DNA of 64,000 nucleotides from Jiangella aurantiaca (GCF_004349105.1 NZ_SMLB01000011.1:62001-126000), one strand, 5' to 3'; counted from the first letter of the stretch, positions 12,514 through 35,872 are shown. A program made the numbers and translations. The notes: generated from the letters alone by a model not told the origin.

Positions 12514-12538
12514 CGTCCTGACCGTTCGGACGCACACA

Positions 12539-12577
12539 CCGGCCGGGTTCTCGTCCATGGGGCGGGAACCCGGCCGG
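12539..12577 (+). terminator. Hairpin terminator candidate after the short dehydrogenase gene
   Basis: A perfect 12-bp stem CCGGCCGGGTTC / GAACCCGGCCGG with a 15-nt loop starts 26 bases after the stop codon. No T-run. Confidence 0.6.
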
Positions 12578-12657
12578 ATTCACGGGGTTGGCGGAGGATG
12601 TGCGTCTTGGTGGCTGGGTTCGCCGGATGGCACACGTTGGCCGGGGATGGCCGCGTG

Positions 12658-13127: not shown

Positions 13128-13530
13128 CGAACCTCACGGCTCCGGCGAACGGGTTCACCGAGTCCAACCCGCCCACGGGTCAGCCGGGCCACCTCGGCCG
13201 CGACGGCGTCGGTCCCGACGCGGCGGCGACGTTGAAACGGTTCGCCACTTTGTCCAATCAGTGTCAGAAGTTCGTCGTTCGCGTGCATGAAACCCGGCTT
13301 CGGTGCTGACGTTCTGTCGCCCTGGTGCCGGATGTTGCCGAACCGTGACCTCGCCCGCCCGGCCCTCCGCGTCCGCACGTCAGGCGCCCGGTCCGGGCGG
13401 TCAAGCCCCAGCTCAAGCCGCATATCACCTGGTATGCACCGAGTCGTCCGGCCACTCCGGCGGCCGCGGCCGGGCCGCCGGTCGTGCGGGCGTCATCGGC
13501 TGGTCACCGGAAGAAACTCGTTCGTAACTC

Positions 13531-13560
13531 TTGACCTTGAGTGGCCGCCCTTCCTAGTTT
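13531..13560 (+). promoter_or_regulatory. Promoter: TTGACC-N18-TAGTTT
   Basis: -35 TTGACC at 13531-13536, -10 TAGTTT at 13555-13560, spacer 18, followed by a G as at 5707-5736. A GAAACTCGTTC element at 13513-13523 starts 18 bases before the -35, exactly as GAAACTGTTTC does at 10303. It serves the ROK and sugar-transporter operon. Confidence 0.65.
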
Positions 13561-13616
13561 GTTGTCCCATCCGACGAACACCCGTGATGCAGGTCACGCC
13601 GGGAGAGGGGGCACCT

Positions 13617-17454: not shown

Positions 17455-17533
17455 CGCCCGAGCCCTACCACCCCCAGAAGAGCGCACCCGCCGGACGGGC
17501 AGTCCGGGACCGATCAATGACGAGGAGAGACCC

Positions 17534-18601: not shown

Positions 18602-18605
18602 TAAG

Positions 18606-18656
18606 GACGGGCGAGGTGGCGGGGCCGGCGCCGGTCCCGCCACCGCCTCGCCCGTC
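18606..18656 (+). terminator. Hairpin after the binding-protein gene
   Basis: GACGGGCGAGG..TGGCGGG pairs with CCCGCCACCGCCTCGCCCGTC, a stem of about 18 bp with a 3-nt bulge, just after the stop at 18601. There is no T-run. It may only lower transcription into the following oxidoreductase gene, a common way to overproduce a binding protein. Confidence 0.55.
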
Positions 18657-18689
18657 ACCAACGGGGGCACACAACGGAAGGCACAGCAC

Positions 18690-19883: not shown

Positions 19884-20043
19884 TCCACGCGGCCGGCACC
19901 GCCGGCGCGACGATGCACCTACCCGCAGCTTGCGAGGACGAGACATTTCGGCCTCACCGGAAAAGCATGGTTCGGCCGAGAACCACGGGGGAACCCCCGG
20001 CACGGAGCGCACTTCCCGTTTCCGACAGTCGAAGGAGACTGTG

Positions 20044-23000
20044 GTGAGTCATCCCGCGCAACGCGCCCGCCGATGGGCGCGGCGATTATTGGCTGCAGGT
20101 GTCGCCGTCGTGACGGCGGTCCCGCTCGCGGTCGCCGCGATGGCGCCCCCGGCCGCGGCCCACCCCGGCCACGGCGGTTACTCGATCCTGGTGTTCTCGA
20201 AGACCGCGGGGTTCCGGCACGACTCGATCCCGGCGGGCATCGCGGCGATCCAGCAGCTGGGCGCCGAGCACGACTTCGACGTCACCGCGACGGAGGACGC
20301 CACGGCGTTCACCGACGCGAACCTGGCCCAGTACGACGCCGTCGTCTGGCTGTCCACCACCGGCGACGTGCTCAACGCCGACCAGCAGGCGGCGTTCGAG
20401 CGGTACATCCAGGCCGGCGGCGGGTACGCCGGCATCCACTCCGCGTCCGACACCGAGTACAGCTGGCCGTGGTACGGCGGGCTGGTCGGTGCCTACTTCG
20501 CCAGCCACCCGCAGAACCAGACCGCGACGGTCAAGGTGGAGGACCCGGCGCACCCGTCGACGGCGCACCTCGACCCGCTCTGGTCCCGGTTCGACGAGTG
20601 GTACAACTACCAGTCCAACCCGCGCGGGAACGTGCACGTGCTGACGTCGCTGGACGAGAAATCGTACTCGCCAGGCGGCGGCGCCATGGGTGCGGACCAC
20701 CCGATCACCTGGTGCCAGGACTACGACGGCGGCCGGTCCTGGTACACCGGCCTGGGCCACACCATCGAGTCGTACTCGGAGCCCGACTTCCTGCAGCTGG
20801 TCCTCGGCGGCATCGAGACCGCGGCCGGCGTCACGCCGGCGGACTGCTCGGCCAGCAAGCCGGACAGCTTCGAGAAGGTGACGCTCGACGACACCACCAG
20901 CAACCCGATGGAGCTGGCGGTCGCCGACGACGGGCGGGTCCTCTACATCGACCGCAACGGCGCGGTCCGGCTCATCCGGCCCGACGGCTCGGCCACCACG
21001 GTCGGCACGCTGAGCGTGTACACGGGCCAGGAGTTCGGCCTCATGGGCATCGCGCTGGACCCCGACTTCACCACCAACGGCTGGATCTACCTCACCTACG
21101 CACCGGCGGGCGGCGAGGCGATCGACCGGGTGTCGCGGTTCACGCTGACCGGCGAGACGCTCGACCTCGCCAGCGAGACAGTCATCATCGAGTACCCGAC
21201 CAACCGGGTCGAGTGCTGCCACGCCGGCGGCGCGCTGGAGTTCGACAACGACGGCAACCTGTACCTCACCACCGGCGACAACACGAACCCGTTCGCGTCC
21301 AACGGCTACGCGCCGATCGACGAGCGGCCCGGCCGCGAGCTCTGGGACGCCCAGCGCACGTCGGCCAACACCAACAGCCTCAGCGGCAAGGTGCTGCGCA
21401 TCACCCCGTCCGACGGCGGCGGCTACACGATCCCCGCGGGGAACCTGTTCCCTTCAGGTACCGCGCAGACCCGGCCCGAGATCTTCGCGATGGGCTTCCG
21501 CAACCCGTTCCGCATCGGTCTGGACCCGGCGACGAACAAGCTCATGGTCGCCGACTACGGCCCGGACGCCGGAAGCGCGAACCCCAGCCGCGGCCCGGAC
21601 GGCCGGGTGGAGTGGAACATCGTCGACCAGCCCGGGTTCTACGGCTGGCCGTACTGCGTCGGCAACAACACGCCGTACATCGACTTCGACTTCGCCACCA
21701 ACCAGTCGGGCGCCGCGTTCAACTGCGACGCACCGGTCAACAACTCGCCGAACAACACCGGCCTGACGCAACTGCCGGCTGCCATACAGGCGGAGGTCTG
21801 GTACGGCTACTCCACCAACCCGCTGTTCCAGGAGATCGGCGGCGGTGGCGCCCCGATGGCCGGCGGCGTCTACCGGTATGACCCGGACCTGGTGTCTGAC
21901 CGCAAGTGGCCGGCGTACTGGGACGGCAAGGCCATCTTCGGTGAGTGGAACCAGGGCAACCTGTACTCGTTCCAGCTGGACGAGGCCGGTTCCGCCGTCA
22001 CCGACATCAACGCCGTCTTCCCGGACTGGCCGTTCGCCCGGCCGCACGCCCTGCAGTGGGGCCCGGACGGCGCGCTGTACGTGATCGAGTGGGGTAGCGG
22101 CTTCGGCGGCAACAACGCCGACTCCGGCGTCTACCGCATCGACTACGTGCAGGGCACCCGGGCGCCGGTGGCGCGCATCAGCGCCAGCGCGACGTCCGGC
22201 CCGGTGCCGCTGGAGGTGTCGTTCGACGGCACCGCGTCGATCGACCCCGAGGGCGGGCCGGTCACCTACGCGTGGGACTTCAACGGCGACGGCACGGTCG
22301 ACTCCACCGAGCCGGAGGCGTCGTACACGTATACGACGGCGGGCGACTACACCGTCGCGCTGACCGTCACGGACGGCGACGGCCTGCAGGACATCGCCAA
22401 CGTCGAGATCGCGGCCGGCAACACCGCACCCGAGGTGAACGTGGCCTGGCCGCCGAACGGCGGGTTCTTCGACTTCGGCGACACCATTCGCTACGAGGTG
22501 AGCGCCACCGACGCCGAGGACGGCCAGGGCGAGTGCCCGCGCATCGTCACCCAGCCCGGGCTCGGCCACGACGAGCACTCGCACGAGTACGCCGAGTACT
22601 TCGGCTGCGCGGGCACGTTCGCGCTGCCCGGCGACGAGGGGCACGTCGGCGCGAACATCTTCGGCACCGTCACGGTCACCTACACCGACAACGGCGCGCC
22701 GAACGTCCGCCCGCTGACCAGCCAGGAGGTGCTGGTCCTGCAGCCCAAGCGGCGCGAGGCCGAGCACTTCGACCACACCGGCCGGCTGTCCGGCTCCACG
22801 TCGGGCGGTGACCCGGGCGTGGCGCTGGAAACCACCGGCGACCCGGCCGGCGGCAGCCAGAACATCGGCTGGATCGACGACGGCGACTGGTGGGCGTGGG
22901 ACCCGATGAACCTCACGAACATCGAGGACATCACGCTGCGGGCGGCGTCGCCGTCGGCCGGCGCCACGGTCGAGGTCCGCACCGGCGCGCCGGATGGCCC

Positions 23001-26000
23001 GACCGTGGCCACCATCGCCGTGGCGGCGACCGGCGCCTGGCAGGTCTACGGTGAGTTCACCGGCGAGGTGAGCGGCGAGACGGCGACCACGAGCGGCCCG
23101 CTCTACTTCGTCAAGACCGCCGGCCAGCTCAACGTGAACTGGATCGACTTCAACGGCCGCGGCGTCACCGACAACCAGCGGCCCGACGTCGAGGTGACCG
23201 CGACGCCGACCAGCGGCACCGTCCCGCTGGACGTCGACTTCGAGGCCACCGCCACCGACCCCGAGGGCGACGACCCGCTCACCTACGCGTGGGTCTTCGG
23301 CGACGGCGGCACCGCCACCGGCCCCACGGCGTCGCACACCTACACCGAGGCGGGCAGCTACGACGCCTCGGTGACAGTGACCGACGCGCGCGGCGCCGCG
23401 GCGACCGAGCACGTCACCATCGAGGTCGACCCGGTCGTGAGCGAGCCGCCGGTCTGCCTCAACGGGCGGTCCGACGGATTCGACGGCACGTCGCTGGACC
23501 GAGACCGCTGGACGACGGTGATCCGCGAGAACCAGGACCTCGTGGTCGAGGACGGCTCGCTGGCGCTGCCGACGTCGAGCACCGACATCTACGGCACCAA
23601 CAACACGAACACGCCGAACATCGTCCTGCAGGACCTGCCGGACGGGCCGTTCACCGCGACCGCGAAGCTGACCATGCAGGCCTACCGGGCCTACCAGCAG
23701 GCCGGTCTGATCATCTACGGCGACGACGACAACTACGCCAAGATGGTGCTGGAGGGCCGTGACACCGGCACCACCAACCCGGCGGCGCGCATCTTCCAGT
23801 TCATCCGCGAGGAGAACGGCGCGCCCAACGAGGTCGGCGAGAGCAACACCGCCAACCTCGGCGCCGCCTACCCGGACACCGTCTGGGTGCGCTACATCAG
23901 CGATGGCACCAACCTGCGCGCCGCGTACAGCGCCGACGGCGTGAACTTCACCGAGATGCCGCAGACGAAGAGCCTGTCCGGCATCACGAACCCGAAGATC
24001 GGCCTGGTCGCGTTGTCCGGCACCGGCCAGCCGGTCACCGAGGTGCGGTTCGACTCGTTCCACATCACGCCCGACGACACCGCCACGCCGCCGGCCCCGG
24101 ACGACGAGTTCGACGGGACGACGCTGGACGGCTGCCGCTGGACCGTGCTGCGGCCGGACGAGACGGGCTACCGGGTCGCCGACGGGAAGCTGGAGATCGA
24201 CACCCCGAACGGCGACATCTACACCGGCGACACCACGCCGCCGCCGGGGAACTTCATGCTCCAGCCGGCGCCCGCCGGCGACGAGTGGACCATCGAGACG
24301 CTGGTCGACGCCTCCGCATTGGTCGAGCAGTACCAGCAGGGCGGGCTGATCGTCTACGAGGACGACGACAACTACGTCAAGTTCGATTTCGTGGTCGACA
24401 ACCCGGCCGGTCAGCCGGTGGCCCGCCGCATCGAGCTGCGTAGCGAGGTCGGCGCCGCCATCCAGAACCCGCAACCCCAGGTCACCGGCCTGACCCAGGG
24501 CGTGTGGCACCTGCGCCTCTCCCGGTCCGGCGACACCTACAGCGGCGCCTACAGCGCCGACGGGCAGACCTGGACCCCGCTGGGCGAGGCGGTCACCAAC
24601 ACCGCGCTGTCCGCGGGCGATGTACGGGTCGGCCTGTTCACCATCGGCACCAACCAGGTGGCGCCCAAGACGGTCACGTTCGACTACTTCCACGTCGACG
24701 GCGGCCAGCAGGCCTGCGAGCCGACGGCGCCGGAGGAGGGCTACACCAGCCTCTTCGACGGCACCGAGGCGAGCCTGGCCGGCTGGGAGATGGCCGGTCC
24801 GGGCGGGTTCGCGCTTACCGAGGACTGCACGCTGCTGTCCGAGGGCGGCATGGGCCTGTACTGGTACTCGGCGGACTCCTACGAGGACTACAGCCTCAAG
24901 CTGGACTGGATGATGCCGGGCGACGACAACTCCGGCGTCTTCGTCGGGTTCCCGAACCCGGGGACCGACCCCTGGGTCGCCGTCAACCAGGGCCACGAGA
25001 TCCAGATCGACGCCACGGACGCGGCGGACCGCACCACGGGTGCGATCTACGCGTTCCAGGGTGCCGACCAGGCCGCTCGCGACGCGGCGCTCAACCCGCC
25101 GGGCGAGTGGAACGAGTACGAGATCGTGGTCCAGGGCGACCGCATCCGGGTCTACCTCAACGGTGCGCTGATCAACGACTACACCGACACCGACCCGAAT
25201 CGGATGAACCAGCCCAGCTACATCGGCATCCAGAACCACGGAGCCGCGGACCAGGTGTACTTCCGCAACGTCCGCATCCAGGAGCTCGTCGACGAGACGG
25301 CGCCCGCGGTCGAGGTCACCCTCGACCCGGCCGAGCCGACCGGCCAGAACGGCTGGTGGACCGGCCCGGTCTCCGTCACCGCGGTGGGCACCGACGAGCA
25401 GGGCGGCGAGGTCGCGTTGGAGTACCGGACCGGCGGCGGCGACTGGACGCCGTACACCGGTGCGGTGATCGTGGACGCCGACGGCGAGCACGCGCTGGAG
25501 TTCCGTGGCACCGACACCGCCGGCAACGTGTCCGGCCCGGTGCCGGTGGCGGTCCGCAAGGACGCCACGCCGCCGGTCACCACCGCCACGCTCGAGGGCG
25601 GCGGCCCGGGCGGCGCCGTGGACGTCACGCTGGCGGCCACCGACGCCACGTCCGGCGTCGCGGCCACCGAGTGGTCGCTCGACGGAGGCGAATGGACGGC
25701 CTACGACGGGCCGGTCACGGTCAGCGGCGACGGCGAGCACGAGCTGCTGTACCGCTCGACCGACGCGGCCGGGAACGCCGAGGACGCCAAGGCGGTCACA
25801 GTCAGCGTCGACGGGTCCGCGCCGGTGCTGTCGGTGAGCGGCGTCGCGCACGGCCAGCTCTACGGCGACAGCCTGAGCCTGACCGTCAGCTGGGCGGCGA
25901 CGGACAACGGACCGGTCACTGTGACCGGGACGCTGGACGGCGCGCCGATCCAGTCCGGTGCCGTGGTCGCGCTGCACGCGATCCCGCTCGGCCTGCACGA

Positions 26001-26436
26001 GCTGGTCGTCGAGGCGACCGACGCGGCCGGCAACAGCACGGTCCAGGAGCTGGTGTTCTTCTCCACGACGTCCTTCTCGGACATGGAGAGCCTGATCACC
26101 CAGTTCCAGACGGCCGGGCAGATCACGCCACGAGTGGCCAAGGACCTGCAGAAGTCGCTGTCCACCGCCCGCCGGCAGGAGGGCATGGGCCGCGAGGACC
26201 GGGCCGTGATCGCGCTGGAGACGTTCAAGAGCACGGTCAACGCGAAGGTCACCGACGCGGGGGTGCGCGGCACCCTCGTCCGGGACGCCGACGCGATGAT
26301 CCTCCGGCTCGGCGGCACGCCGCGGCAGGCCGCGGCCGGCGTCGAGGCCAACGGTGGTGAGGCGCTCACCGAGACGGGCCGTCTCGACGGCGACCCGGAC
26401 CGTACAGAGGGCAAGGAGCTGCCCGCCACGGAGTAA
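20044..26436 (+). CDS. Giant secreted multidomain protein: ThuA + PQQ-type sugar dehydrogenase + PKD/CBM6/DUF1349/DUF1080/Ig modules
   Basis: 2130 aa from GTG 20044, six bases after AAGGAG; GTG 20041 and ATG 19930 are possible but put extra residues before an obvious signal peptide (RRWARRLLAAG... ending PPAAAH). Domains in order: ThuA-like (~40-270), Gdh/sorbosone dehydrogenase (~277-700; VECCHAGGALEF, GFRNPFR), PKD (~706-794), Ig-like (~796-892), CBM6-like (~898-1035), second PKD (~1046-1132), two DUF1349-like (~1146-1342, ~1353-1556), DUF1080 (~1565-1749), three Ig/OmpL47-like (~1753-2007) and a helical FIMAH-like domain (~2010-2095). ThuA and DUF1080 families include enzymes of 3-keto-sugar metabolism, so one polypeptide may oxidise and cleave glycosides outside the cell. 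A TTA codon at 20086-20088 lies in the signal peptide. Confidence 0.88.
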   Translation: MSHPAQRARRWARRLLAAGVAVVTAVPLAVAAMAPPAAAHPGHGGYSILVFSKTAGFRHDSIPAGIAAIQQLGAEHDFDVTATEDATAFTDANLAQYDAVVWLSTTGDVLNADQQAAFERYIQAGGGYAGIHSASDTEYSWPWYGGLVGAYFASHPQNQTATVKVEDPAHPSTAHLDPLWSRFDEWYNYQSNPRGNVHVLTSLDEKSYSPGGGAMGADHPITWCQDYDGGRSWYTGLGHTIESYSEPDFLQLVLGGIETAAGVTPADCSASKPDSFEKVTLDDTTSNPMELAVADDGRVLYIDRNGAVRLIRPDGSATTVGTLSVYTGQEFGLMGIALDPDFTTNGWIYLTYAPAGGEAIDRVSRFTLTGETLDLASETVIIEYPTNRVECCHAGGALEFDNDGNLYLTTGDNTNPFASNGYAPIDERPGRELWDAQRTSANTNSLSGKVLRITPSDGGGYTIPAGNLFPSGTAQTRPEIFAMGFRNPFRIGLDPATNKLMVADYGPDAGSANPSRGPDGRVEWNIVDQPGFYGWPYCVGNNTPYIDFDFATNQSGAAFNCDAPVNNSPNNTGLTQLPAAIQAEVWYGYSTNPLFQEIGGGGAPMAGGVYRYDPDLVSDRKWPAYWDGKAIFGEWNQGNLYSFQLDEAGSAVTDINAVFPDWPFARPHALQWGPDGALYVIEWGSGFGGNNADSGVYRIDYVQGTRAPVARISASATSGPVPLEVSFDGTASIDPEGGPVTYAWDFNGDGTVDSTEPEASYTYTTAGDYTVALTVTDGDGLQDIANVEIAAGNTAPEVNVAWPPNGGFFDFGDTIRYEVSATDAEDGQGECPRIVTQPGLGHDEHSHEYAEYFGCAGTFALPGDEGHVGANIFGTVTVTYTDNGAPNVRPLTSQEVLVLQPKRREAEHFDHTGRLSGSTSGGDPGVALETTGDPAGGSQNIGWIDDGDWWAWDPMNLTNIEDITLRAASPSAGATVEVRTGAPDGPTVATIAVAATGAWQVYGEFTGEVSGETATTSGPLYFVKTAGQLNVNWIDFNGRGVTDNQRPDVEVTATPTSGTVPLDVDFEATATDPEGDDPLTYAWVFGDGGTATGPTASHTYTEAGSYDASVTVTDARGAAATEHVTIEVDPVVSEPPVCLNGRSDGFDGTSLDRDRWTTVIRENQDLVVEDGSLALPTSSTDIYGTNNTNTPNIVLQDLPDGPFTATAKLTMQAYRAYQQAGLIIYGDDDNYAKMVLEGRDTGTTNPAARIFQFIREENGAPNEVGESNTANLGAAYPDTVWVRYISDGTNLRAAYSADGVNFTEMPQTKSLSGITNPKIGLVALSGTGQPVTEVRFDSFHITPDDTATPPAPDDEFDGTTLDGCRWTVLRPDETGYRVADGKLEIDTPNGDIYTGDTTPPPGNFMLQPAPAGDEWTIETLVDASALVEQYQQGGLIVYEDDDNYVKFDFVVDNPAGQPVARRIELRSEVGAAIQNPQPQVTGLTQGVWHLRLSRSGDTYSGAYSADGQTWTPLGEAVTNTALSAGDVRVGLFTIGTNQVAPKTVTFDYFHVDGGQQACEPTAPEEGYTSLFDGTEASLAGWEMAGPGGFALTEDCTLLSEGGMGLYWYSADSYEDYSLKLDWMMPGDDNSGVFVGFPNPGTDPWVAVNQGHEIQIDATDAADRTTGAIYAFQGADQAARDAALNPPGEWNEYEIVVQGDRIRVYLNGALINDYTDTDPNRMNQPSYIGIQNHGAADQVYFRNVRIQELVDETAPAVEVTLDPAEPTGQNGWWTGPVSVTAVGTDEQGGEVALEYRTGGGDWTPYTGAVIVDADGEHALEFRGTDTAGNVSGPVPVAVRKDATPPVTTATLEGGGPGGAVDVTLAATDATSGVAATEWSLDGGEWTAYDGPVTVSGDGEHELLYRSTDAAGNAEDAKAVTVSVDGSAPVLSVSGVAHGQLYGDSLSLTVSWAATDNGPVTVTGTLDGAPIQSGAVVALHAIPLGLHELVVEATDAAGNSTVQELVFFSTTSFSDMESLITQFQTAGQITPRVAKDLQKSLSTARRQEGMGREDRAVIALETFKSTVNAKVTDAGVRGTLVRDADAMILRLGGTPRQAAAGVEANGGEALTETGRLDGDPDRTEGKELPATE

Positions 26437-26514
26437 CCGTTGTAGCCGACCGCGAGGTCTGACGTCAGTCGGCGATGACACAGTCCCCAACCCCCACCAC
26501 AAGGAGACGTCACC

Positions 26515-26721
26515 ATGAGAGTTCTGCTGCCGTCCGGCGCGCCGCGCCGGAACGGAACCCGCGACCAGGGCACCTCGGCCCTGCCCCGGATCGCCGGGCC
26601 GGGCTCTCGTGGGCGACGGGGAGCCGGCACACGCCGGCTCCCGGCCCCGGTGCCGGAGCGACGCGCTCCGCGCCGGCACCGGGGCGCCAGCTTCGTGGCG
26701 TTCGAAGGGGCGCAGGCATGA
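26515..26721 (+). CDS. Small open reading frame or structured leader before the ebo-like operon
   Basis: 68 codons from ATG 26515, with AAGGAG nine bases upstream, ending in an ATGA overlap with the cyclase gene, so the translation signals look real. The peptide is Arg/Pro/Gly-rich with no domain. Its second half is dominated by two strong hairpins in the DNA (26619-26642 and 26645-26684), which suggests the RNA structure matters more than the peptide. The start context GGAGACGTCACC is shared with the 3413 gene. It may be a leader peptide, a degenerate gene or a genuine small protein; I cannot decide. Confidence 0.35.
   Translation: MRVLLPSGAPRRNGTRDQGTSALPRIAGPGSRGRRGAGTRRLPAPVPERRAPRRHRGASFVAFEGAQA
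26619..26684 (+). promoter_or_regulatory. Two tandem strong hairpins in the leader of the ebo-like operon
   Basis: First hairpin: GGGAGCCGGC (26619-26628) with GCCGGCTCCC (26633-26642), loop 4. Second: CCCCGGTGCCGG (26645-26656) with CCGGCACCGGGG (26673-26684), whose loop can pair further (GAGCG/CGCTC). They sit 34 bases before the cyclase start. No T-run follows, so attenuation, RNA stabilisation or insertion debris are all possible. Confidence 0.55.
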
Positions 26722-27872
26722 GCGGCGTCGGCATCTGGTTCGTCGGCGCCCGTGGCTCGGTGGCCACGACGACCACGGTCGGCCTGCTGGCCATCCGGTC
26801 CCGGCTGGCCGGGCACACCGGCATGGTGTCCGAGCTGCCCGAGGTCGCGGCGGCCGGGCTGCCGTCGCTGGACGGCGTCGTCGTCGGCGGCCACGAGGTC
26901 GCCGAGGGAACGCTGGGCAAGCGGGCCGAGGAGCTGAGCGCGGGCGGTGTGTTCCCGCCCGCTCTGGCCACCGTACTGGCCGGCGACCTCGCCGCCGCCG
27001 ACGAGCGGATCCGGCCCGGCGTCGTGGCCGGGCACGGGACGCAGCGTTCGGCGGCGGACCGGGTCGGGGCCGAGCTGCGCGCGTTCCGCGACGAGAACGG
27101 CCTGGACCGCGTGGTCGTCGTCGACGTGTCGAGCACCGAGCCGCCGGCCGGCGACGTCCCCGCGCTGGAGACGCTCGCGGCACTGGAGGGCGCGCTGGAC
27201 GCGGGCGAGGCGCCGCTGCCGGGCAGCTCGCTGTACGCCTACGCGGCGTTCCGGGCCGGCTGCCCGTACGTCGCCTTCACCCCGAGCCCGGGACCGCGGC
27301 TCCCGGCTCTGCTCGAACTGGCGCTGGAGCGGGGCGTCCCGTGGGCCGGTTCGGACGCCAAGACCGGCGAGACGCTGGTCAAGACCGTGCTCGGGCCGAT
27401 GTTCGCGATGCGCGCGCTGAAGGTGCGCTCGTGGTCGTCGGTCAACCTGCTGGGGGGCGGCGACGGGCAGACGCTCGCCGACCCGGACAACGCCGCCAGC
27501 AAGATCGCCACCAAGGCCAACGGCCTGGAGTCGATCCTCGGCCACCCGGTCGACGGGCCGCTGCACATCGACTACGTGCCCGACCTCGGTGACTGGAAGA
27601 CGGCATGGGACCTGGTGTCGTTCGAGGGCTTCCTCGGCACCCGGATGTCCATGCAGTTCACCTGGTCCGGCTGCGACTCCTCGCTGGCCGCGCCGCTGGT
27701 GCTGGACCTCGTCCGGCTGCTCGCGCGGGCGCACGAGCTGGGCGCCGCCGGGCCGGTGCCGGAGTTCGGGTTCTTCTTCAAGGACCCGGCCGCCAGCGAC
27801 GTGCACGCGCTCAGCGCGCAGTGGGCGGCGCTGGCCGGCTGGTGCGCGCGGGCCGGTCGGGGAGCGTTATGA
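26718..27872 (+). CDS. myo-Inositol-1-phosphate-synthase-like NAD-dependent cyclase, first enzyme of the ebo-like cluster
   Basis: 384 aa from ATG 26718. The Rossmann NAD site is WFVGARGSVATTTTVG near the N-terminus; the MIPS core appears as GSDAKTGETLVKTVL, SVNLLGGGDGQTL, SKIATKANGLES and FEGFLGTRMSMQF, equivalent to GDDFKSGQT, SYNHLGNNDG and KSNVVDD of known synthases. It is thus a divergent member that could turn a sugar 6-phosphate into a cyclitol phosphate. Its stop overlaps the UbiA start by 4 bases, so it is part of this pathway rather than general inositol supply. Known ebo clusters carry EboD, a dehydroquinate-synthase-like cyclase, which is not seen here. The two families are unrelated in fold, but both are NAD-using sugar-phosphate cyclases. 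Confidence 0.87.
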   Translation: MSGVGIWFVGARGSVATTTTVGLLAIRSRLAGHTGMVSELPEVAAAGLPSLDGVVVGGHEVAEGTLGKRAEELSAGGVFPPALATVLAGDLAAADERIRPGVVAGHGTQRSAADRVGAELRAFRDENGLDRVVVVDVSSTEPPAGDVPALETLAALEGALDAGEAPLPGSSLYAYAAFRAGCPYVAFTPSPGPRLPALLELALERGVPWAGSDAKTGETLVKTVLGPMFAMRALKVRSWSSVNLLGGGDGQTLADPDNAASKIATKANGLESILGHPVDGPLHIDYVPDLGDWKTAWDLVSFEGFLGTRMSMQFTWSGCDSSLAAPLVLDLVRLLARAHELGAAGPVPEFGFFFKDPAASDVHALSAQWAALAGWCARAGRGAL

Positions 27873-28726
27873 GGTTCCGCGACGTCGCCGAGCTGGTGCG
27901 GGCGCCCGCGGCGTTGACCGTGCCGGGCGACTCGCTGGCGGGCGCGGCCGCGGCCGGGTTCCCGTATGGCGTCCGGACCGCGGTCACGCCGCTGGCCTCG
28001 GCCTGCCTGTACTGGGCCGGCATGGCACTGAACGACTATGCCGACCGCGACCTCGACCGCGTCGAGCGACCGGAGCGGCCGATCCCGTCCGGCCGGGTGC
28101 GGCCCGGTGAGGCGCTGGCCCTGGCCGCCGGCCTGACGGCGGCCGGCGTGGGGCTGGCGGCCGTGGCCGGTGGACGGCGAGCCGTGCGGGTCGCCGTCCC
28201 GCTGGCCGCCACGGTGTGGGCTTACGACCTGGTCGCCAAGGCCACCCCGGCCGGGCCGGTCGCGATGGGCGCCGCCCGCGGCCTCGACGTGCTGCTGGGC
28301 GCCGGCGGCCGCGAACGCGCGGCGGCGCTGCCGGCGCTGGCGGTCGCCACCCACACCGTCGGTGTCACCGTGCTCAGCCGCGGCGAGGTGCACGGCGGTT
28401 CGACGGCGTCGGCCCGGGCCGCACTCGGCGCGACCGCGGCCGCGTCGCTGGCCGCCGCACTGCCGCCGCCGACCCGGTCCGTGCGCGGGCTGGCGGCGGC
28501 CGGATTCGCCGCGTTGTATGCGGCGACGGTGGGGCGGGCGCAGCTCGGCGCGGCTCGCACGCCGGACGCCGCGACCGTCCGGTCCGCGACCGGGGCCGGC
28601 GTGCGCGGCGTCATCCCTCTGCAGTCGGCGCTGCTCGCCCGGGCCGGGGCGGTGGCGCTGGCCGGCGCCGTCGTCGGCATCGGCCCGGCGGTCCGGGCGC
28701 TGTCGAAGGTGGTGTCGCCGACGTGA
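27869..28726 (+). CDS. eboC: UbiA-family prenyltransferase, EboC-like
   Basis: 285 aa from ATG 27869 (ATGA overlap with the cyclase). An Ala/Gly/Val-rich integral membrane protein with about eight helices. The first Asp-rich motif is NDYADRDLDRVERPERP and the second region is YDLVAKATPAGPVAMGAARGLD, both characteristic of UbiA enzymes that bind Mg-prenyl diphosphate. It likely joins a prenyl chain to a polar acceptor at the membrane; the product of the adjacent cyclase is the obvious candidate acceptor. EboC of described ebo clusters belongs to this family. The stop overlaps the next start (GTGA). Confidence 0.85.
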   Translation: MRFRDVAELVRAPAALTVPGDSLAGAAAAGFPYGVRTAVTPLASACLYWAGMALNDYADRDLDRVERPERPIPSGRVRPGEALALAAGLTAAGVGLAAVAGGRRAVRVAVPLAATVWAYDLVAKATPAGPVAMGAARGLDVLLGAGGRERAAALPALAVATHTVGVTVLSRGEVHGGSTASARAALGATAAASLAAALPPPTRSVRGLAAAGFAALYAATVGRAQLGAARTPDAATVRSATGAGVRGVIPLQSALLARAGAVALAGAVVGIGPAVRALSKVVSPT

Positions 28727-29724
28727 GTCTCAGATTTGGCTATGGCACGAACGGGTTCGGCAGCCACCGGCTCGACGACGCGCTCGCCGTCATCGCCGGG
28801 CTGGGCTACGACGGCGTCGCGCTGACGGTGGACCACCCGCACCTGGACCCGTTCGCGCCGAACCTGTCCGCGCGCACCGTCGCGGTCGGGCAGCGGCTGG
28901 CCGAGCTGGACCTCGATGTCGTCATCGAGACCGGCGCGCGGTACGTGCTGGACCCGTGGCGCAAGCACGAGCCGAACCTGGTCTCCGACAGCGGCCGGGA
29001 ACGGCGGGTCGACCTGCTGTGCCGGGCGGTCCGGATCGGCGCCGAGCTGGGCGCGGAGGCGGTGTCGTTCTGGTCCGGCACGCTGCCCGGTGGCGTCAGC
29101 GCCGACGAGGGCTGGCGGCGGCTGACGGCGGGCGTGGCGGCGGTGCTGGAGGAGGCCGACCGGCGCGGCATGGTCTGCGCGTTCGAGCCGGAGCCCGGGA
29201 TGTTCGTCGACACCGTCGCCGGAGTGCTGGAGCTGCGCAAACGGCTCGGCGACCCGGACCACCTCCGCGTGACGTTGGACGTCGGGCACGTCGTCGCGAA
29301 CGAGGCGGGCACCGTCGCCGACTGTGTCCACCAGGCCGGCGACCTGCTCGCGAACGTCCAGCTCGACGACATGGTCGAGGGCGTGCACGAGCATCTCGAG
29401 TTCGGCGAGGGCGAGGTCGACCTGCCGGCGGCGCTGGGTGCACTCCTGGACGTCGGCTACGGCGGGCTGGCCGCCGTCGAGCTGCCGCGGCACGGGCACG
29501 CCGCGCCCGCCGTCGCGCGCCGCTCACTGGACGCACTGCGGGCGGCCGAGGCGCAGGCCCGCGCTGCCCGCCAACGCCCCGAGAACCCAGTTGATCTTGG
29601 AGTAACCGTGGAATCAATCCGGCAAAACGGACCTCAACCCGCCGGTTACTCCAAGATCAACGCGAAGGGGGACGGGGACGACCGGGGGAGAACACAAGAC
29701 GGGGGAGAGGAGTCAACGTCATGA
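28723..29724 (+). CDS. Xylose-isomerase-like TIM-barrel enzyme with a C-terminal tail encoded by a palindromic element
   Basis: 333 aa from GTG 28723. Barrel motifs: LRFGYGTNGFG, GYDGVALTVDHPH, VIETGARY, CAFEPEPGMFVD, RVTLDVGHVV, NVQLDDM, AAVELPRHG; Glu, Asp and His ligands for a divalent metal are present. It resembles sugar isomerases/epimerases and lies between eboC and eboA, where described ebo clusters do not usually have an extra barrel. The fold ends near ARAARQRPE (~29,580). The last ~45 residues are read through the palindrome at 29590-29661 and a hydrophilic stretch, so the element appears to have inserted at the gene end and supplied a new stop that overlaps the EboA start (ATGA). 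Confidence 0.83.
   Translation: MSLRFGYGTNGFGSHRLDDALAVIAGLGYDGVALTVDHPHLDPFAPNLSARTVAVGQRLAELDLDVVIETGARYVLDPWRKHEPNLVSDSGRERRVDLLCRAVRIGAELGAEAVSFWSGTLPGGVSADEGWRRLTAGVAAVLEEADRRGMVCAFEPEPGMFVDTVAGVLELRKRLGDPDHLRVTLDVGHVVANEAGTVADCVHQAGDLLANVQLDDMVEGVHEHLEFGEGEVDLPAALGALLDVGYGGLAAVELPRHGHAAPAVARRSLDALRAAEAQARAARQRPENPVDLGVTVESIRQNGPQPAGYSKINAKGDGDDRGRTQDGGEESTS
29590..29661. repeat. Palindromic element, 19-bp perfect arms with GTTGATCTTGGAG ends, inside a coding 3' end
   Basis: GTTGATCTTGGAGTAACCG (29590-29608) is the exact complement of 29643-29661, with a 34-nt centre. The outer 14 bases (GTTGATCTTGGAGT) are identical to those of the element at 49535-49606, and the ends follow the GTTGATC..GGAG pattern of those at 37717 and 52471. 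Confidence 0.85.
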
Positions 29725-30392
29725 GCGCGACGATCGAACGCACCACCCCGCACCTCGACGAGGCCGCCCGGGCCCGGCTGACCGCGCTGGTCGCGGAGGT
29801 CGAGACGGACCCGGGCCGGATCTCGGTGCTGTTCCCAGCGGTAGGCCGGACGGTGGCCCGCGGGCCGTCGAACCCTGCAGACCCGGACGGGCTACGCAGC
29901 CCGCGGCTGGAGGACGAGGCCCGAGCGGCGCTGCTCGTCGCCGCCGCGGACGGCTGGAGCAAGGAGCCCGGGAAGCTGGTCGAGGAGATCGGCCAGCTGT
30001 ACCGGTTCGGCGACGCCGACGAGAAACGGGCGGTCCTGCGCGCGCTGCCGGCGCTCGACATCGCCGACGCCGGGCTGCCACTGGTCGCCGACGCGCTGCG
30101 CACCAACGACGTCCGGCTGGTCGCCGCCGCGCTGGGGCCGTACGCCGCGCGGCACCTCGACGCCGCGGCCTGGCGGCAGGGCGTGCTGAAGTGCCTGTTC
30201 GTCGGCGTGCCGCTGGACGCCGTCGCCGACCTCGACGCACGCACCGACGAGGAGCTGGCCCGCATGGTCGCCGACTACGGCAACGAGCGGGTGGCCGCCG
30301 GCCGGTCCGTGCCCACCGACGCCTGGCGCATCCTCGGCCGCCATCCCGAGGCGGTCGCCGGCCGCTTCCCCGTCCCCTCCCAGGAGGACTGA
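29721..30392 (+). CDS. eboA: EboA-family protein
   Basis: 223 aa from ATG 29721 (ATGA overlap), with a GGGAGAGGAG purine tract upstream. A soluble, mainly helical protein. The C-terminal half carries what I recognise as the EboA pattern: GLPLVADALRTNDVRLVAAAL, HLDAAAWRQGVLKCLFVGVPL and a short ELARMVADYGNERVAAGR segment ending in TDAWR. The biochemical role of EboA is not known. In described ebo clusters it accompanies export or modification of a small molecule. Gene order EboC-(barrel)-EboA-EboB-EboE-EboF supports the assignment. Confidence 0.82.
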   Translation: MSATIERTTPHLDEAARARLTALVAEVETDPGRISVLFPAVGRTVARGPSNPADPDGLRSPRLEDEARAALLVAAADGWSKEPGKLVEEIGQLYRFGDADEKRAVLRALPALDIADAGLPLVADALRTNDVRLVAAALGPYAARHLDAAAWRQGVLKCLFVGVPLDAVADLDARTDEELARMVADYGNERVAAGRSVPTDAWRILGRHPEAVAGRFPVPSQED

Positions 30393-30394
30393 CG

Positions 30395-31279
30395 ATGCGC
30401 ATCTTCGACCCCCACATCCACATGACGTCGCGCACCACCGACGACTACCAGCGCATGTACGCCGCCGGGGTGCGGGCGATCACCGAGCCGGCGTTCTGGC
30501 TCGGCCAGCCGCGCACCAACGTCGGCTCGTTCGTCGACTACTTCGACGGGCTGCTCGGCTGGGAGCGGTTCCGGGCCGCGCAGTTCGGCATCCGGCACCA
30601 TTGCACGATCGCGTTGAACCCGAAGGAGGCCAACGACCCGCGCTGCCACGGCGTGCTCGAGGTGCTGCCGCGGTACCTGGCCAAGGACGGCGTCGTCGCG
30701 GTCGGCGAGGTCGGCTTCGACTCGATGACCGATGACGAGGAGAAGGTGTTCCTCCGGCAGCTGGAGCTGGCCGGCGAGCACGACCTGCCGGTGCTGGTGC
30801 ACACGCCGCACCGCGACAAGGCGGCCGGGACGCGGCGCACGCTGGAGCTGGTCGCGGCGAGCGGGCTGCCGCCGGAGCGGGTGCTGGTCGACCACCTCAA
30901 CGAGACGACCGTCGGCATGGTCGCCGACTCCGGCTGCTGGATGGGGTTCTCGATCTACCCGGACACCAAGATGGACGAGCACCGGATGGTCCGCATCCTC
31001 GCCGACCGCGGGCTGGAGCGGATGATCGTCAACTCCGCCGCCGACTGGGGGCACAGCGACCCGCTGAAGACCGTCAAGACCGGCCGCGCCATGCTCGCCG
31101 AAGGGTTCAGCGCCGACGACGTCGACACGGTGCTCTGGCAGAACCCGGTCGAGTTCTACGGGCAGAGCGGCCGGTTGCTGCTCGACGAGGTGGACCTCGC
31201 CGGGACGGGCGGGCGGGCCGCGACGTTCGAGGGCAATTCCATCCTGCGCGGCCAGCGACCCGACCCCGCGGAGGCCTGA
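30395..31279 (+). CDS. eboB: TatD-like metal-dependent hydrolase, EboB
   Basis: 294 aa from ATG 30395, two bases after the eboA stop, with CAGGAGG inside the preceding gene. Amidohydrolase-type barrel: DPHIHMTS (metal HxH), AVGEVGFDSM (metal Glu), LPVLVHTPHRDK, VLVDHLNETT and NSAADWGHSDPL (catalytic Asp) appear in the order expected for TatD/EboB proteins. It probably hydrolyses a phospho- or carboxyl-ester bond of the pathway intermediate; the substrate is unknown. Cytoplasmic, no signal. The family name is firm, the reaction is not. Confidence 0.86.
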   Translation: MRIFDPHIHMTSRTTDDYQRMYAAGVRAITEPAFWLGQPRTNVGSFVDYFDGLLGWERFRAAQFGIRHHCTIALNPKEANDPRCHGVLEVLPRYLAKDGVVAVGEVGFDSMTDDEEKVFLRQLELAGEHDLPVLVHTPHRDKAAGTRRTLELVAASGLPPERVLVDHLNETTVGMVADSGCWMGFSIYPDTKMDEHRMVRILADRGLERMIVNSAADWGHSDPLKTVKTGRAMLAEGFSADDVDTVLWQNPVEFYGQSGRLLLDEVDLAGTGGRAATFEGNSILRGQRPDPAEA

Positions 31280-31281
31280 GG

Positions 31282-32457
31282 ATGCGGTTCCGGCACTCCG
31301 ACGGCACCGTCGTCCACCTCGCGTACTGCACGAACGTCCACCCGACCGAGGACGTCGAGGCGCTGCTGGACCAGGTGACGCGGTACGGCGCGGGCGCGCG
31401 GTCGCGGCTCGGGGCGTCCCGTCTGGGGCTGGGCCTGTGGCTGCCGGCGCCGGTGGTCGCTCGGCTGGCGTCCGAGGCCGGCCGCGGCGACCTCGACCGG
31501 CTGCGCGCGACGCTGGCCGCCGGCGGGCTCGAGGTGGTGACGCTCAACGCGTTCCCGTACCAGGGCTTCCACGACCCGCGGGTGAAGCTGGGCGTCTACC
31601 ACCCCGACTGGCTCACGACCCAGCGGCTGGCCTACACGCTGGACTGCGCCCGGGTGCTGGCGGCGCTGCTGCCCGACGACGCCGTCCGCGGCAGCGTGTC
31701 GAGCCTGCCGCTGGCCTGGCGCACGCCGTGGGACGACGCCCGGCGCGGGCTCGCGGCGGACCGGCTGGCGCAGCTGGCCGACGGGCTGGCCAAGGTCGAG
31801 GCGGACACCGGGCGGACGGTCCGGGTGGCGCTGGAGCCGGAGCCGGGCTGCGTCGTCGAGACGATCGACGGGGCCGCCGCCCAGCTCGGCGCCGTCGACA
31901 CCGACCGGATCGGCGTCTGCCTGGACGCCTGCCACCTGGCGACGCAGTTCGAGGAGCCGGCCGACGCGCTGGCCACGCTGGCGGCCGCCGGGCTGCCCGT
32001 CGTCAAGACGCAGGCGTCGGCGGCGCTCGAGGTCGCCGACCCGTCCGACCCGGTCGCCCGCAAGGCGCTGGCCGCGTACGCCGAGGACCGGTTCCTGCAC
32101 CAGACCCGGGTCCGCACACGCGGCCAGGTCGTGGGAGTCGACGACCTGCCGGCGGCGCTGTCGTCGGCGGCGTTCCCGGACGACGGGCCATGGCGGGTGC
32201 ACTTCCACGTGCCAGTGCACGAGCAGCCGGAGCCGCCGCTGGCCGCCACGCAGCAGCACCTGACGGCGACGCTACGGGCGCTGTTCGGCGGCGAGCGGGC
32301 GGTGACCGACCACGTGGAGGTCGAGACGTACACCTGGTCGGTGCTGCCCGCGGGGCGCCGGCCGGAGGGCCCGGACGGGCTGACGGACGGGCTGGCGGCG
32401 GAGCTGCGCTGGGTCGCGGACCGAATGGCCGAAATCGGTATGGAGGAGATCGCGTGA
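31282..32457 (+). CDS. eboE: EboE, xylose-isomerase-like TIM-barrel protein
   Basis: 391 aa from ATG 31282, two bases after the eboB stop. The opening LAYCTNVHPTEDVEALLDQV and TLNAFPYQGFHDPRVK are strongly characteristic of the EboE group; ALEPEPGCVVET, GVCLDACHLATQFE and the late HFHVPVHEQPEPPL supply candidate Glu, Asp and His ligands. TIM-barrel family, usual length. The last residues ([12 protein letters not shown]) overlap the EboF start (GTGA). Its substrate is unknown; the EboE group is required, with its neighbours, for metabolite traffic in the best studied clusters. Confidence 0.87.
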   Translation: MRFRHSDGTVVHLAYCTNVHPTEDVEALLDQVTRYGAGARSRLGASRLGLGLWLPAPVVARLASEAGRGDLDRLRATLAAGGLEVVTLNAFPYQGFHDPRVKLGVYHPDWLTTQRLAYTLDCARVLAALLPDDAVRGSVSSLPLAWRTPWDDARRGLAADRLAQLADGLAKVEADTGRTVRVALEPEPGCVVETIDGAAAQLGAVDTDRIGVCLDACHLATQFEEPADALATLAAAGLPVVKTQASAALEVADPSDPVARKALAAYAEDRFLHQTRVRTRGQVVGVDDLPAALSSAAFPDDGPWRVHFHVPVHEQPEPPLAATQQHLTATLRALFGGERAVTDHVEVETYTWSVLPAGRRPEGPDGLTDGLAAELRWVADRMAEIGMEEIA

Positions 32458-33836
32458 ACAAGCTCTTGGTGCTCGACGTCGTCGGCCTGACGCCGCGGCT
32501 GCTGGAGCACACCCCGAACCTGCGGGCGATCGCCGGGGAGGGCTGGCAGGCGGCGCTGGGCACGGTGCTGCCGGCGGTGACCTGCTCGGTCCAGTCGACG
32601 TTCCTCACCGGCGCCATGCCTCGCGACCACGGCATCGTCGGCAACGGCTGGTACTTCCGCGACCTCGGCGAGATCTTCCTGTGGCGGCAGCACAACCGGC
32701 TGGTCCAGGGCGAGAAGGTGTGGGACGTCGCGCGGCAGGTGCGGCCCGGCTACACCGTCGCGAACGTGTGCTGGTGGTACGCGATGGGCGCCGACACCGA
32801 CTGGACGGTGACGCCGCGGCCGATCTACCACGCCGACGGCCGCAAGTCGCCGGACTGCTACACCCGGCCGCCGGCCCTGCACGACGAGCTGACCCGCTCG
32901 CTGGGAGCGTTCCCGCTGTTCCAGTACTGGGGTCCGACGGCGTCGATCAAGTCCAGCGAGTGGATCGTCCAGGCGACGCGGAAGCTGATGCCGCAGGCCG
33001 ACCTCACGCTGGCCTACGTCCCGCACCTCGACTACGACCTGCAGCGGTTCGGGCCGCACAGCCCGCAGGCCGTCGCCGCGGCCCGCGACGTCGACCGCGT
33101 GCTGGCGCCGCTGCTCACTGACGCCCGCGACCAGGGCGTCACGGTCGTCGCGCTCAGCGAGTACGGCATCGGCCCGGCCAGCCGCCCGGTGCACGTCAAC
33201 CGGGCGCTGCGGCAGGCCGGGCTGCTGGACGTCTACACGCAGGCCGGCATGGAGTACCTGGACCCGTGGGCGTCGCGGGCGTTCGCCGTCGCCGACCACC
33301 AGGTGGCGCATGTCTACGTCAAGGATCCGGCCGACCTCGACGCCGTCCGGGAGCTGTGCCAGGCGCTGCCCGGCGTCGACCTCGTCCTGGACAAGGAGGC
33401 GCAGCGGGAGTTCGGGCTGGACCACGAGCGCTCCGGCGAGCTGGTGCTGGTCGCGGACCTCGGCGCGTGGTTCACCTACTACTACTGGCTGCACGACGAC
33501 CGCGCGCCCGACTTCGCGCGCGGTGTCGAGATCCACCGCAAGCCCGGCTACGACCCCGCCGAGCTGTTCCTCGACCCCGCCGACCCGCGGGTCAAGCTGC
33601 GGGCCGGCGCCAACCTGGCGAAGAAGAAGCTGGGCCTGCGGTACGCGATGAACGTCGTGCCGCTGGACGGGCAGTGGGTCCGCGGCACGCACGGCCGGCT
33701 GCCCGACGACCCCGCCGACGGGCCGGTGCTGCTGTGCAGCGACCCGTCGACCGCCCGCGACCAGCTGGCCGCCACCGACGTCCGCGATCTGATGCTCGAG
33801 CTCGCCGAGCTCAGCACCCCTGCCCGGAATCGATAG
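32454..33836 (+). CDS. eboF: EboF-like nucleotide pyrophosphatase/phosphodiesterase (alkaline phosphatase superfamily)
   Basis: 460 aa from GTG 32454, overlapping the eboE stop. Alkaline-phosphatase-superfamily core: [14 protein letters not shown] (metal Asp), [15 protein letters not shown] (nucleophile Thr), [24 protein letters not shown] (metal Asp/His), ALSEYGIGP (replacing the more common SDHG) and HGRLPDD near the end. It should cleave a phosphodiester or pyrophosphate in the pathway product. No signal peptide, so it acts in the cytoplasm. It ends 38 bases before the next TIM-barrel gene. Confidence 0.85.
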
Positions 33837-33874: not shown

Positions 33875-34882
33875 ATGGCACGACCGATCACCCTGTTCAC
33901 CGGGCAGTGGGCCGACCTGCCGTTCGAGGAGGTCGCCCGGCTGGCCGGCGAGTGGGGCTACGACGGCCTCGAGATCGCCTGCTGGGGCGACCACCTCGAC
34001 GTGTGGCGCGCGGCCGAGGACGACGCCTACGTGAAGTCGCGGCTGGACATCCTGGAGCAGAACGGCCTGAAGGTGTGGGCGATCTCCAACCACCTCAAGG
34101 GCCAGGCGGTCTGCGACGACCCGATCGACCAGCGGCACCGGGGGATCCTGCCGGACCGCATCTGGGGCGACGGCGAGCCCGAAGGCGTCCGGCAGCGCGC
34201 CGCCGAGGAGATGAAGATGACGGCGCGCGCGGCCGCCCGGCTCGGCGTGAACACCGTCGTCGGCTTCACCGGCTCGGCGATCTGGAAGTACGTCGCGATG
34301 TTCCCGCCGGCGTCGGACGACATGATCGCTGCCGGCTACCGCGACTTCGCCGACCGCTGGAACCCGATCCTCGACGTGTTCGACGAGGTCGGCGTGCGGT
34401 TCGCGCACGAGGTGCACCCGTCGGAGATCGCCTACGACTACTGGACGACGGTGCAGACGCTCGAGGCCATCGGACACCGCGAGGCGTTCGGCCTCAACTG
34501 GGACCCCAGCCACATGGTCTGGCAGGACCTCGACCCCGTCGCGTTCATCTGGGACTTCCGCGACCGCATCTACCACGTCGACTGCAAGGACACGAAGAAG
34601 CAGCTCGGCAACGGCCGCAACGGCCGGCTCAGCTCGCACCTGCCGTGGGCCGACCCGCGGCGGGGCTGGGACTTCGTCTCCACCGGCCACGGCGACGTGC
34701 CGTGGGAGCAGGCGTTCCGCACGCTCAACGCGATCGGCTACGACGGCCCCATCTCCGTCGAGTGGGAGGACGCCGGCATGGACCGCCTGCGCGGCGCCCC
34801 CGAGGCCCTGGAGTTCGTGAAGTCGCGCCTGTTCGACGCGCCGGCGGCGGCGTTCGACGCCGCGTTCAGCTCCGGCGACTAG
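33875..34882 (+). CDS. Sugar phosphate isomerase/epimerase-like TIM-barrel enzyme (cytoplasmic)
   Basis: 335 aa from ATG 33875, behind GAAGGAG. Barrel with [26 protein letters not shown], the [11 protein letters not shown] segment, [11 protein letters not shown] (metal Glu), [12 protein letters not shown] (metal Asp/His), YHVDCKD and [11 protein letters not shown] (metal Glu). Full length for the family and no signal peptide. It is close to inositol-catabolic or keto-sugar isomerases in general appearance, but the substrate is unknown. Short spacing after eboF suggests it is the penultimate gene of the operon. Confidence 0.88.
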
Positions 34883-34912
34883 ACCTTCGCAGCACCCCCC
34901 GAAAGGAGCACG

Positions 34913-35872
34913 ATGATGTGTTACGGATACGACGGCGACCGCGCCTTGGACGAGTCGCTGGCCCGTCGCGGACTGGGCCGGCGGACGTTCCTGCTCGGCG
35001 CGGCCGCGGCCGCCGGCGGCGTGCTGGCGGGTGTCGGCGGTGCGCTGCCCGCATCGGCCGGCGCCCGGCCGACCGGCCGGGCGATCGTCCCGCGCGGCGC
35101 GATCAGCATCCAGCTGTGGACGGTGCGCGACGCGCTGTGGGGTTCGCCGGGGTTCGACGCGACGCTGCAGGCGATCGCCGACTACGGCTACGTCAAGGTC
35201 GAGCAGGCCCTCGGGTACTTCGGCCGCACCGCTGCCCAGCTGCGCGACTTCTACGATGAGATCGGCATCTCGTGCACGTCGAGCCACGACGGCATCAGTG
35301 GCGACCAGGCCTCGCTGGAGACCAAGCTCGAGAACGCCGTCACGCTGGGCCAGCGGTTCATCGTCGTCCCGTACCTCGCCTCGGACAAGCTGTCCGACTG
35401 GCAGCTGTGGGCCGAGCAGATGAACGAGGAGGCCGCGCTGGCGCGGACGTACGGTCTGCGCTACGGCTACCACAACCACGCGCACGAGTTCACGACCGAC
35501 CTCGGCGGCGGCGTGACGCCGTGGGAGGTGCTGACGTCCGAGCTGGATCCGGGCCTCGTCCACCTCGAGGTCGACCTCTACTGGGCCGTGACCGGCGGCA
35601 TCAACAGCGGCGTCGCGGTCGAGGACTCCGAGCAGTTCGCCATCGACGTCATCGACGCCGCGCCGCAGCGGACGTTGCAGTACCACGTCAAGGACCGCCA
35701 CCTCGCTGGCGGCGACATGGCCGATCTTGGCACCGGGCACATCGACTTCGCGAAGATCTTCCGCGCGCACCGCGTGCTGGAGTACATCGTCGAGAACGAC
35801 ACCCCGGACGTCACCCCGCTGCAGACCGCGGAGGTCGGCTACCGGTACCTCACCGAGCTGCGGATGCGCTGA
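34913..35872 (+). CDS. Tat-exported sugar isomerase/epimerase-like TIM-barrel protein
   Basis: 319 aa from ATG 34913 (ATG 34916 is also possible), with GAAAGGAG upstream. A twin-arginine signal LGRRTFLLGAAAAAGG is preceded by an unusual MCYGYDGDRALDESL head. The barrel carries SIQLWTVRDAL, VKVEQALGYF, YGYHNHAHEFTTDLGG, VHLEVDLYWAVTGG, YHVKDRH and EYIVEND. It is a paralogue of the 5880 protein: the two share SIQL(W/F)T(V/I)R, NHxHEF and the E(V/M)D(L/I)YWA motif. Export places one barrel of the operon outside the membrane, on the side where the dehydrogenases work. A strong hairpin follows. Confidence 0.88.
   Translation: MMCYGYDGDRALDESLARRGLGRRTFLLGAAAAAGGVLAGVGGALPASAGARPTGRAIVPRGAISIQLWTVRDALWGSPGFDATLQAIADYGYVKVEQALGYFGRTAAQLRDFYDEIGISCTSSHDGISGDQASLETKLENAVTLGQRFIVVPYLASDKLSDWQLWAEQMNEEAALARTYGLRYGYHNHAHEFTTDLGGGVTPWEVLTSELDPGLVHLEVDLYWAVTGGINSGVAVEDSEQFAIDVIDAAPQRTLQYHVKDRHLAGGDMADLGTGHIDFAKIFRAHRVLEYIVENDTPDVTPLQTAEVGYRYLTELRMR

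Follow-up and report, generated by a model that had tools for sequence, protein, structure and literature searches.

The replacement of EboD by a MIPS-type cyclase in actinobacterial ebo clusters is well supported by the data described here, and the same arrangement prevails across the Actinobacteria. The classical ebo operon comprises eboA–F, and its product has been predicted to be an isoprenoid-cyclitol (PMC5133447). In a 64,000-nucleotide stretch of DNA from Jiangella aurantiaca (hereafter, the window), we found an ebo-type cluster of seven tightly packed genes, all on the + strand, at positions 26718–33836 (Table 1). Because EboD is absent from both the cluster and the genome and a MIPS is present instead, we class this cluster as an ebo variant rather than a classical ebo operon. 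Our search of the open-access literature turned up no paper linking MIPS to ebo or describing this variant.

Organization of the cluster

A previous reading of the window, made from the sequence only, had proposed seven ebo-type genes in this interval. All are present, co-directional and in a recurrent order. As that reading also stated, most neighbors overlap by 4 bases (4 of 6 junctions); the other 2 junctions have 2-base gaps. The gene order repeats in dozens of actinobacterial genomes, which rules out chance clustering of the seven genes. The MIPS reading frame extends back to an ATG at 26475; homology supports 26718 as the start. None of the seven genes encodes an exporter or other transporter, an NRPS, a PKS or a resistance protein. 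A further TIM-barrel gene, TIM2, often lies near MIPS-type ebo clusters yet is outside the core set. Among loci spanning 19 kb or more, 30 of 74 contain it, and in 7 it directly neighbors EboF.

Table 1. Genes of the J. aurantiaca cluster and the neighboring TIM2 gene, numbered from the first nucleotide of the window
Gene product	Coordinates	Strand	Length and start	Model or remark
MIPS-like NAD-dependent sugar-phosphate cyclase	26718..27872	+	384 aa	PF07994/PF01658; in EboD's place
UbiA-superfamily prenyltransferase, SCO3242 family, EboC counterpart	27869..28726	+	285 aa	NF045897
Gene 3, xylose-isomerase-like TIM barrel, ketose(-phosphate) 3-epimerase fold	28723..29724	+	333 aa, GTG start	PF01261
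EboA, predicted all-helical, HEAT/ARM-like	29721..30392	+	223 aa	NF035938
TatD-like metal-dependent hydrolase, EboB counterpart	30395..31279	+	294 aa	PF01026
EboE, TIM barrel	31282..32457	+	391 aa	NF035939
EboF, alkaline-phosphatase/NPP superfamily	32454..33836	+	460 aa, GTG start	PF01663
TIM2, second sugar-phosphate-isomerase-like TIM barrel	33875..34882	+		PF01261, 148 bits

The ebo genes are embedded in a sugar-oxidation/uptake region (10381–26436 and 33875–35872). These flanks encode PQQ-type glucose/sorbosone dehydrogenase proteins, a ROK regulator, a sugar ABC permease and binding protein, a Gfo/Idh oxidoreductase and a 2168-aa ThuA/GSDH/3-keto-disaccharide-hydrolase protein, followed by two further TIM barrels. 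Similar genes flank a cluster in Gemmatirosa, and a ThuA gene flanks one in Halocatena (see below).

The cluster cyclase

As judged from its sequence, the window cyclase belongs to the MIPS enzyme superfamily, its activity being predicted. It scores 145 bits on PF07994 and 110 bits on PF01658, and its best match among solved structures is Archaeoglobus MIPS (1u1i, E = 1e-67). Eight residues of the Archaeoglobus enzyme that we take to be catalytic (D225, N255, D261, K274, K278, K306, D332 and K367) are kept as D213, N243, D249, K262, K266, K294, D320 and K355, respectively, and all eight are invariant across 18 cluster MIPS. Archaeoglobus D259 is replaced by Gly in the window protein.

Identity of this protein with the housekeeping inositol synthase, INO1, was rejected, in agreement with the sequence-only reading. 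The genome has a true INO1 on another contig (C36), which scores 688 bits on the mycothiol INO1 model TIGR03450, versus 29 bits for the cluster cyclase (cut-off 638). On A2, a profile built from cluster MIPS with the window protein among them, the scores are 606 bits for the window protein and 81 bits for INO1. In a maximum-likelihood tree, the actinobacterial cluster MIPS form one clade (support 96/97). INO1, on a very long branch, lies outside it, as do the YcaO-cluster group and the archaeal-like and phosphoinositol-lipid types. The cluster cyclase has the same fold and catalytic residues as both archaeal MIPS (1u1i), to which it is closest, and mycothiol INO1/InoA, but groups separately from either. 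The ebo MIPS of Gemmatimonadota and haloarchaea fall outside the actinobacterial clade, and hence the tree does not establish a single origin of the swap.

MIPS and EboD in actinobacterial genomes

The J. aurantiaca genome (6.6 Mb, 102 contigs, listed as 100% complete) encodes one DHQ synthase, which is AroB-type by sequence and falls far short of the cut-off of the EboD model NF004852 (169 versus 333 bits). This model recognizes classical EboD, as the protein from an Azospirillum ebo cluster scores 571 bits. An EboD acting from elsewhere in the genome, which the sequence-only reading had considered, is thus rejected. Across 296 actinobacterial genomes, no protein passes the NF004852 cut-off, and most of 26 ebo-positive actinobacterial genomes show one DHQ-synthase match each. 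All 16 plasmid records with EboD are non-actinobacterial, and plasmid records with EboE from Streptomyces, Embleya, Nonomuraea and Gemmatirosa carry MIPS. EboD-type clusters carry relatives of the same A, B, C, E and F proteins.

EboE was found above cut-off in 13 of the 296 sampled genomes. Cluster-type MIPS, defined by a score above ∼490 bits on A2 or by two pieces (363 + 167 or 361 + 158 bits), is present in all 13 of these and in 0 of the other 283 (Fisher P = 6e-23, uncorrected for species relatedness, with A2 containing the own MIPS of some among the 13). A survey of Ebo loci for MIPS versus EboD, as envisaged in the sequence-only reading, pointed the same way: of 83 actinobacterial loci with sufficient sequence on the upstream side, 68 have a co-directional MIPS as the immediately preceding gene. 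Some genomes contribute several loci to this set, and the window's genome is included in it.

Among the 15 loci lacking an adjacent MIPS is a Streptomyces type that has a phytoene-desaturase-like gene in its place. A MIPS-less Ebo locus occurs in 13 named Streptomyces genomes, of which 12 keep cluster-type MIPS elsewhere and 11 have a second EboE. In the draft genome of S. alanosinicus (L066/G305), which has a MIPS-less Ebo locus, cluster-type MIPS was not found. Of two clusters in S. scabiei, one lacks MIPS; the other contains it, but UbiA and EboF were not detectable there. In Herbidospora, a MIPS-EboA-TatD-EboE cluster lacks UbiA, and a UbiA above cut-off is encoded elsewhere in the genome. 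It is difficult to see why MIPS or UbiA would be kept in trans if MIPS did not act together with the remaining ebo genes. In one genome (G279), EboE and UbiA are frame-broken and MIPS is of the YcaO-cluster type, which we read as a decayed cluster.

Given these data, we consider it improbable that the cluster MIPS is simply a duplicated inositol-phosphate synthase that raises inositol supply, with a positional link to ebo and no cyclase needed by actinobacterial ebo. Conservation of the catalytic residues of true MIPS fits that idea, as do the 15 loci without a neighboring MIPS. However, the genome already has a housekeeping INO1, the cluster type is confined to EboE genomes, genomes with MIPS-less clusters keep MIPS elsewhere, and haloarchaea and Gemmatimonadota likewise have MIPS together with UbiA, TatD and EboF relatives.

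Several features of individual Streptomyces loci were also seen. In the MIPS-less type, the phytoene-desaturase-like FAD oxidoreductase is encoded directly upstream of UbiA (L023:13912-15333; also L050, L058, L060, L064, L065, L067 and L071), and these proteins are 86–94% identical. Streptomyces sp. WM6386 has a cluster-type MIPS beside a possible EboF remnant (L171:8952-9215), a trace of cluster decay. On a Streptomyces camelliae plasmid, a ScyD/ScyE family protein, of a family named after the scytonemin operon, is encoded directly upstream of MIPS (L123:3221-4423), with a multicopper oxidase downstream.

Gene 3 and its association with MIPS

The third gene, which is absent from the classical six-gene ebo set, scores 125 bits on PF01261. 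Its predicted structure (pLDDT 90) is matched best in Foldseek by UlaE, an L-xylulose-5-P 3-epimerase (E = 5e-16), and also by D-tagatose 3-epimerases and the 3-keto-glucoside epimerase YcjR. Plasmids of Methylobacterium, Roseomonas and Hymenobacter (L129, L130 and L131) carry in one cluster a MIPS relative and a gene-3 relative (46–47% identical), and no recognized ebo genes. Since the two cluster together outside ebo, MIPS and gene 3 are a traveling pair. We read the functional substitute for EboD as a two-gene module of MIPS and an epimerase-like TIM barrel. The sequence-only reading had a single enzyme taking over the EboD step; a MIPS-family cyclase does sit at the EboD position in a genome without EboD, but the replacement involves two genes.

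The annotated Roseomonas and Hymenobacter clusters also contain YcaO, Gfo/Idh and PIG-L genes, and that of Roseomonas additionally has MBL-fold, methyltransferase and glycosyltransferase genes. These plasmid clusters look like an undescribed cyclitol pathway, perhaps a mycothiol-like one.

Inositol phosphate is not necessarily the product of a MIPS homologue; one example is 6k96, a solved homologue named five-membered-cyclitol-phosphate synthase. The window cyclase could in principle make a cyclitol phosphate with a five-membered ring or another unusual structure by Ari2-like chemistry, with gene 3 first epimerizing the sugar phosphate. The fold of gene 3 is in line with this, as ketose-phosphate 3-epimerases act on ketoses and not on inositol phosphate. 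We nonetheless regard such a product as unlikely, because the window cyclase is far closer to archaeal MIPS than to 6k96 (E = 3e-12); an inositol-type cyclitol phosphate is the product that we favor.

The prenyltransferase and the other Ebo proteins

The window UbiA scores 378 bits on NF045897 (cut-off 260), the model for the SCO3242 prenyltransferase. Its next-best model is NF035940 (EboC), on which it reaches 144.5 bits and stays below the cut-off of 250; the UbiA of the EboD-type Azospirillum cluster is also under this cut-off (89 bits). The SCO3242 family is sister to EboC, and the window UbiA is the EboC counterpart. The first Asp motif, NDxxDxxxD, is intact and conserved, and the region of the second motif reads RxE. 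The nearest solved structure is digeranylgeranylglyceryl phosphate (DGGGP) synthase (6m31). As this enzyme prenylates a phosphorylated polyol ether, the similarity is consistent with a cyclitol-phosphate acceptor. One caveat here is that, in E. coli, a flavobacterial EboC-type UbiA attached farnesyl groups to quinoline acids (PMC9235831), which raises the possibility of a non-cyclitol acceptor.

EboA and EboE match their family models, as the sequence-only reading held: EboA scores 173 bits on NF035938 (cut-off 50) and EboE scores 411 bits on NF035939 (cut-off 250). The assignment of every protein to an Ebo family model did not hold throughout, with UbiA below the EboC cut-off and no dedicated NCBIfam model hit for EboB or EboF. 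These two were assigned from Pfam, synteny and similarity to genes of one EboD-type cluster. EboB scores 54.5 bits on PF01026, has 3guw (AF_1765) as its nearest structure and is 59% identical to the TatD gene product of the Azospirillum EboD-type cluster; EboF scores 222 bits on PF01663 and is 54% identical to EboF of that cluster.

The AlphaFold2 model of EboA is all-helical with high confidence (pLDDT 95). Searched against the PDB, it gave no significant match; the helical-repeat matches are weak (best E = 0.26), and so no function can be read from the structure. A confidently modeled all-helical protein without close structural relatives would fit a scaffold role.

EboF is conserved, yet SEYG replaces the SDHG of superfamily hydrolases in 94 of 96 homologues. 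The metal site is, to judge from these residues, probably remodeled, which makes hydrolysis (i.e. a phosphodiesterase step) uncertain. We also saw Gln at the expected histidine of DxxxH in the EboF family; SEYG and this Gln are found in EboD- and MIPS-type clusters alike.

Proposed pathway

Gene content, protein families, the absence of EboD, co-occurrence, the separate ancestry of the cyclase and the conservation of its catalytic residues were observed directly. The best explanation for them, and in our view the probable one, is that the actinobacterial MIPS-type ebo pathway yields a prenyl-cyclitol with a carrier or cofactor role in the membrane, aiding outward movement of a small molecule; its chemistry, the order of its steps and export are what we infer. 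In the cytoplasm, MIPS, probably together with the gene-3 TIM barrel, would convert a sugar phosphate (most likely hexose-6-phosphate) to an inositol-type cyclitol phosphate. In the membrane, the SCO3242/EboC prenyltransferase would place a prenyl chain on a hydroxyl of this phosphorylated polyol, comparable to the action of DGGGP synthase on a glycerol-phosphate ether. EboB, EboE and EboF would edit the head group, and EboA would act as a helical scaffold. The prenyl-cyclitol may then function as the membrane carrier or cofactor that moves a small molecule outward, a role reported for ebo in Nostoc, where loss of any one ebo gene stops the export of another compound and gives no gene-specific intermediates (PMC6282210). 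That the product is a prenylated cyclitol (phosphate) is a sound inference from MIPS plus UbiA, and such a product has already been proposed for classical ebo clusters (PMC5133447).

A MIPS-type cyclase in the EboD position of Actinobacteria narrows the chemistry of the ebo product. MIPS-type enzymes start from a hexose phosphate and retain the phosphate. They would thereby give the phosphatase-like EboF a substrate, something left unexplained for EboD by Yurchenko et al. (PMC5133447).

Comparison with known systems

The classical ebo clusters (PMC5133447) share with the window cluster the EboA domain, a TatD-like EboB, a UbiA-type prenyltransferase, EboE, EboF, tight clustering and the predicted product class. 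They differ in having a DHQ-synthase-like EboD in place of MIPS and the extra epimerase-like TIM barrel, and the window UbiA is of the SCO3242 family. Fusions of EboA with a TIM barrel in Actinobacteria were described by Yurchenko et al., who did not mention inositol (PMC5133447). The ebo genes of Nostoc punctiforme, involved in scytonemin export, include homologues of EboA, EboB, EboC, EboE and EboF; there, an EboD homologue is nearby as the cyclase and no MIPS has been reported (PMC6282210).

The CDA cluster of Streptomyces coelicolor, SCO3210–3249, has been listed with SCO3242 and SCO3243 among its genes, the latter named myo-inositol phosphate synthase (PMC3610822); SCO3237 is a phosphodiesterase (PMC8981147). 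SCO3242 is annotated as a transferase and gives its name to NF045897. The housekeeping synthase of this organism, InoA, is part of a different operon, SCO3899/3900 (PMC7581861). Both ends of SCO3237–SCO3243 match the seven-gene run of the window, whereas the literature treats these genes as CDA and not as ebo. Based on position, SCO3237–3243 are probably the seven ebo-type genes of S. coelicolor. With the MIPS-type variant, the ebo question can be taken up in Streptomyces, which are genetically easy to handle, and seven genes commonly assigned to the CDA cluster may instead form a separate, general system. In the literature we found, a product, substrate or phenotype has been reported for no actinobacterial ebo gene.

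The CDA location also bears on a different reading, namely that the cluster makes a prenylated secondary metabolite (e.g. a protective or antimicrobial compound), with the cyclitol as a building block rather than part of a transport carrier lipid. The patchy distribution (13/296 genomes), plasmid-borne Streptomyces copies and position in an annotated antibiotic region are compatible with such a metabolite, and a protective metabolite was the ebo product preferred by Yurchenko et al. (PMC5133447). Nevertheless, the seven-gene cluster lacks NRPS, PKS, resistance and exporter genes, and the Nostoc deletions affect export of another compound rather than causing gene-specific intermediates to accumulate. 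On balance, we view a secondary metabolite as possible but doubtful, and continue to prefer the carrier or cofactor.

Clusters outside the Actinobacteria

In Gemmatirosa, MIPS, the gene-3 TIM barrel, UbiA, EboF, TatD and EboE (460 bits) occur together. Plasmids of the haloarchaea Halobaculum and Halocatena carry MIPS-NPP divergent from TatD-TIM-UbiA-TIM (L127:4109-10659 and L128:4244-10545). These two clusters contain no recognized EboA and no canonical EboE, and their UbiA proteins score about equally on the two prenyltransferase models. We tentatively suggest that Actinobacteria, Gemmatimonadota and haloarchaea share an unrecognized class of membrane lipid, a prenyl inositol-type cyclitol phosphate made by MIPS, epimerase and UbiA, which might be a general carrier taking small molecules across the membrane, with EboD or MIPS plus TIM barrel as interchangeable routes to the head group. 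The haloarchaeal plasmid clusters have the appearance of an ebo-like pathway in archaea.
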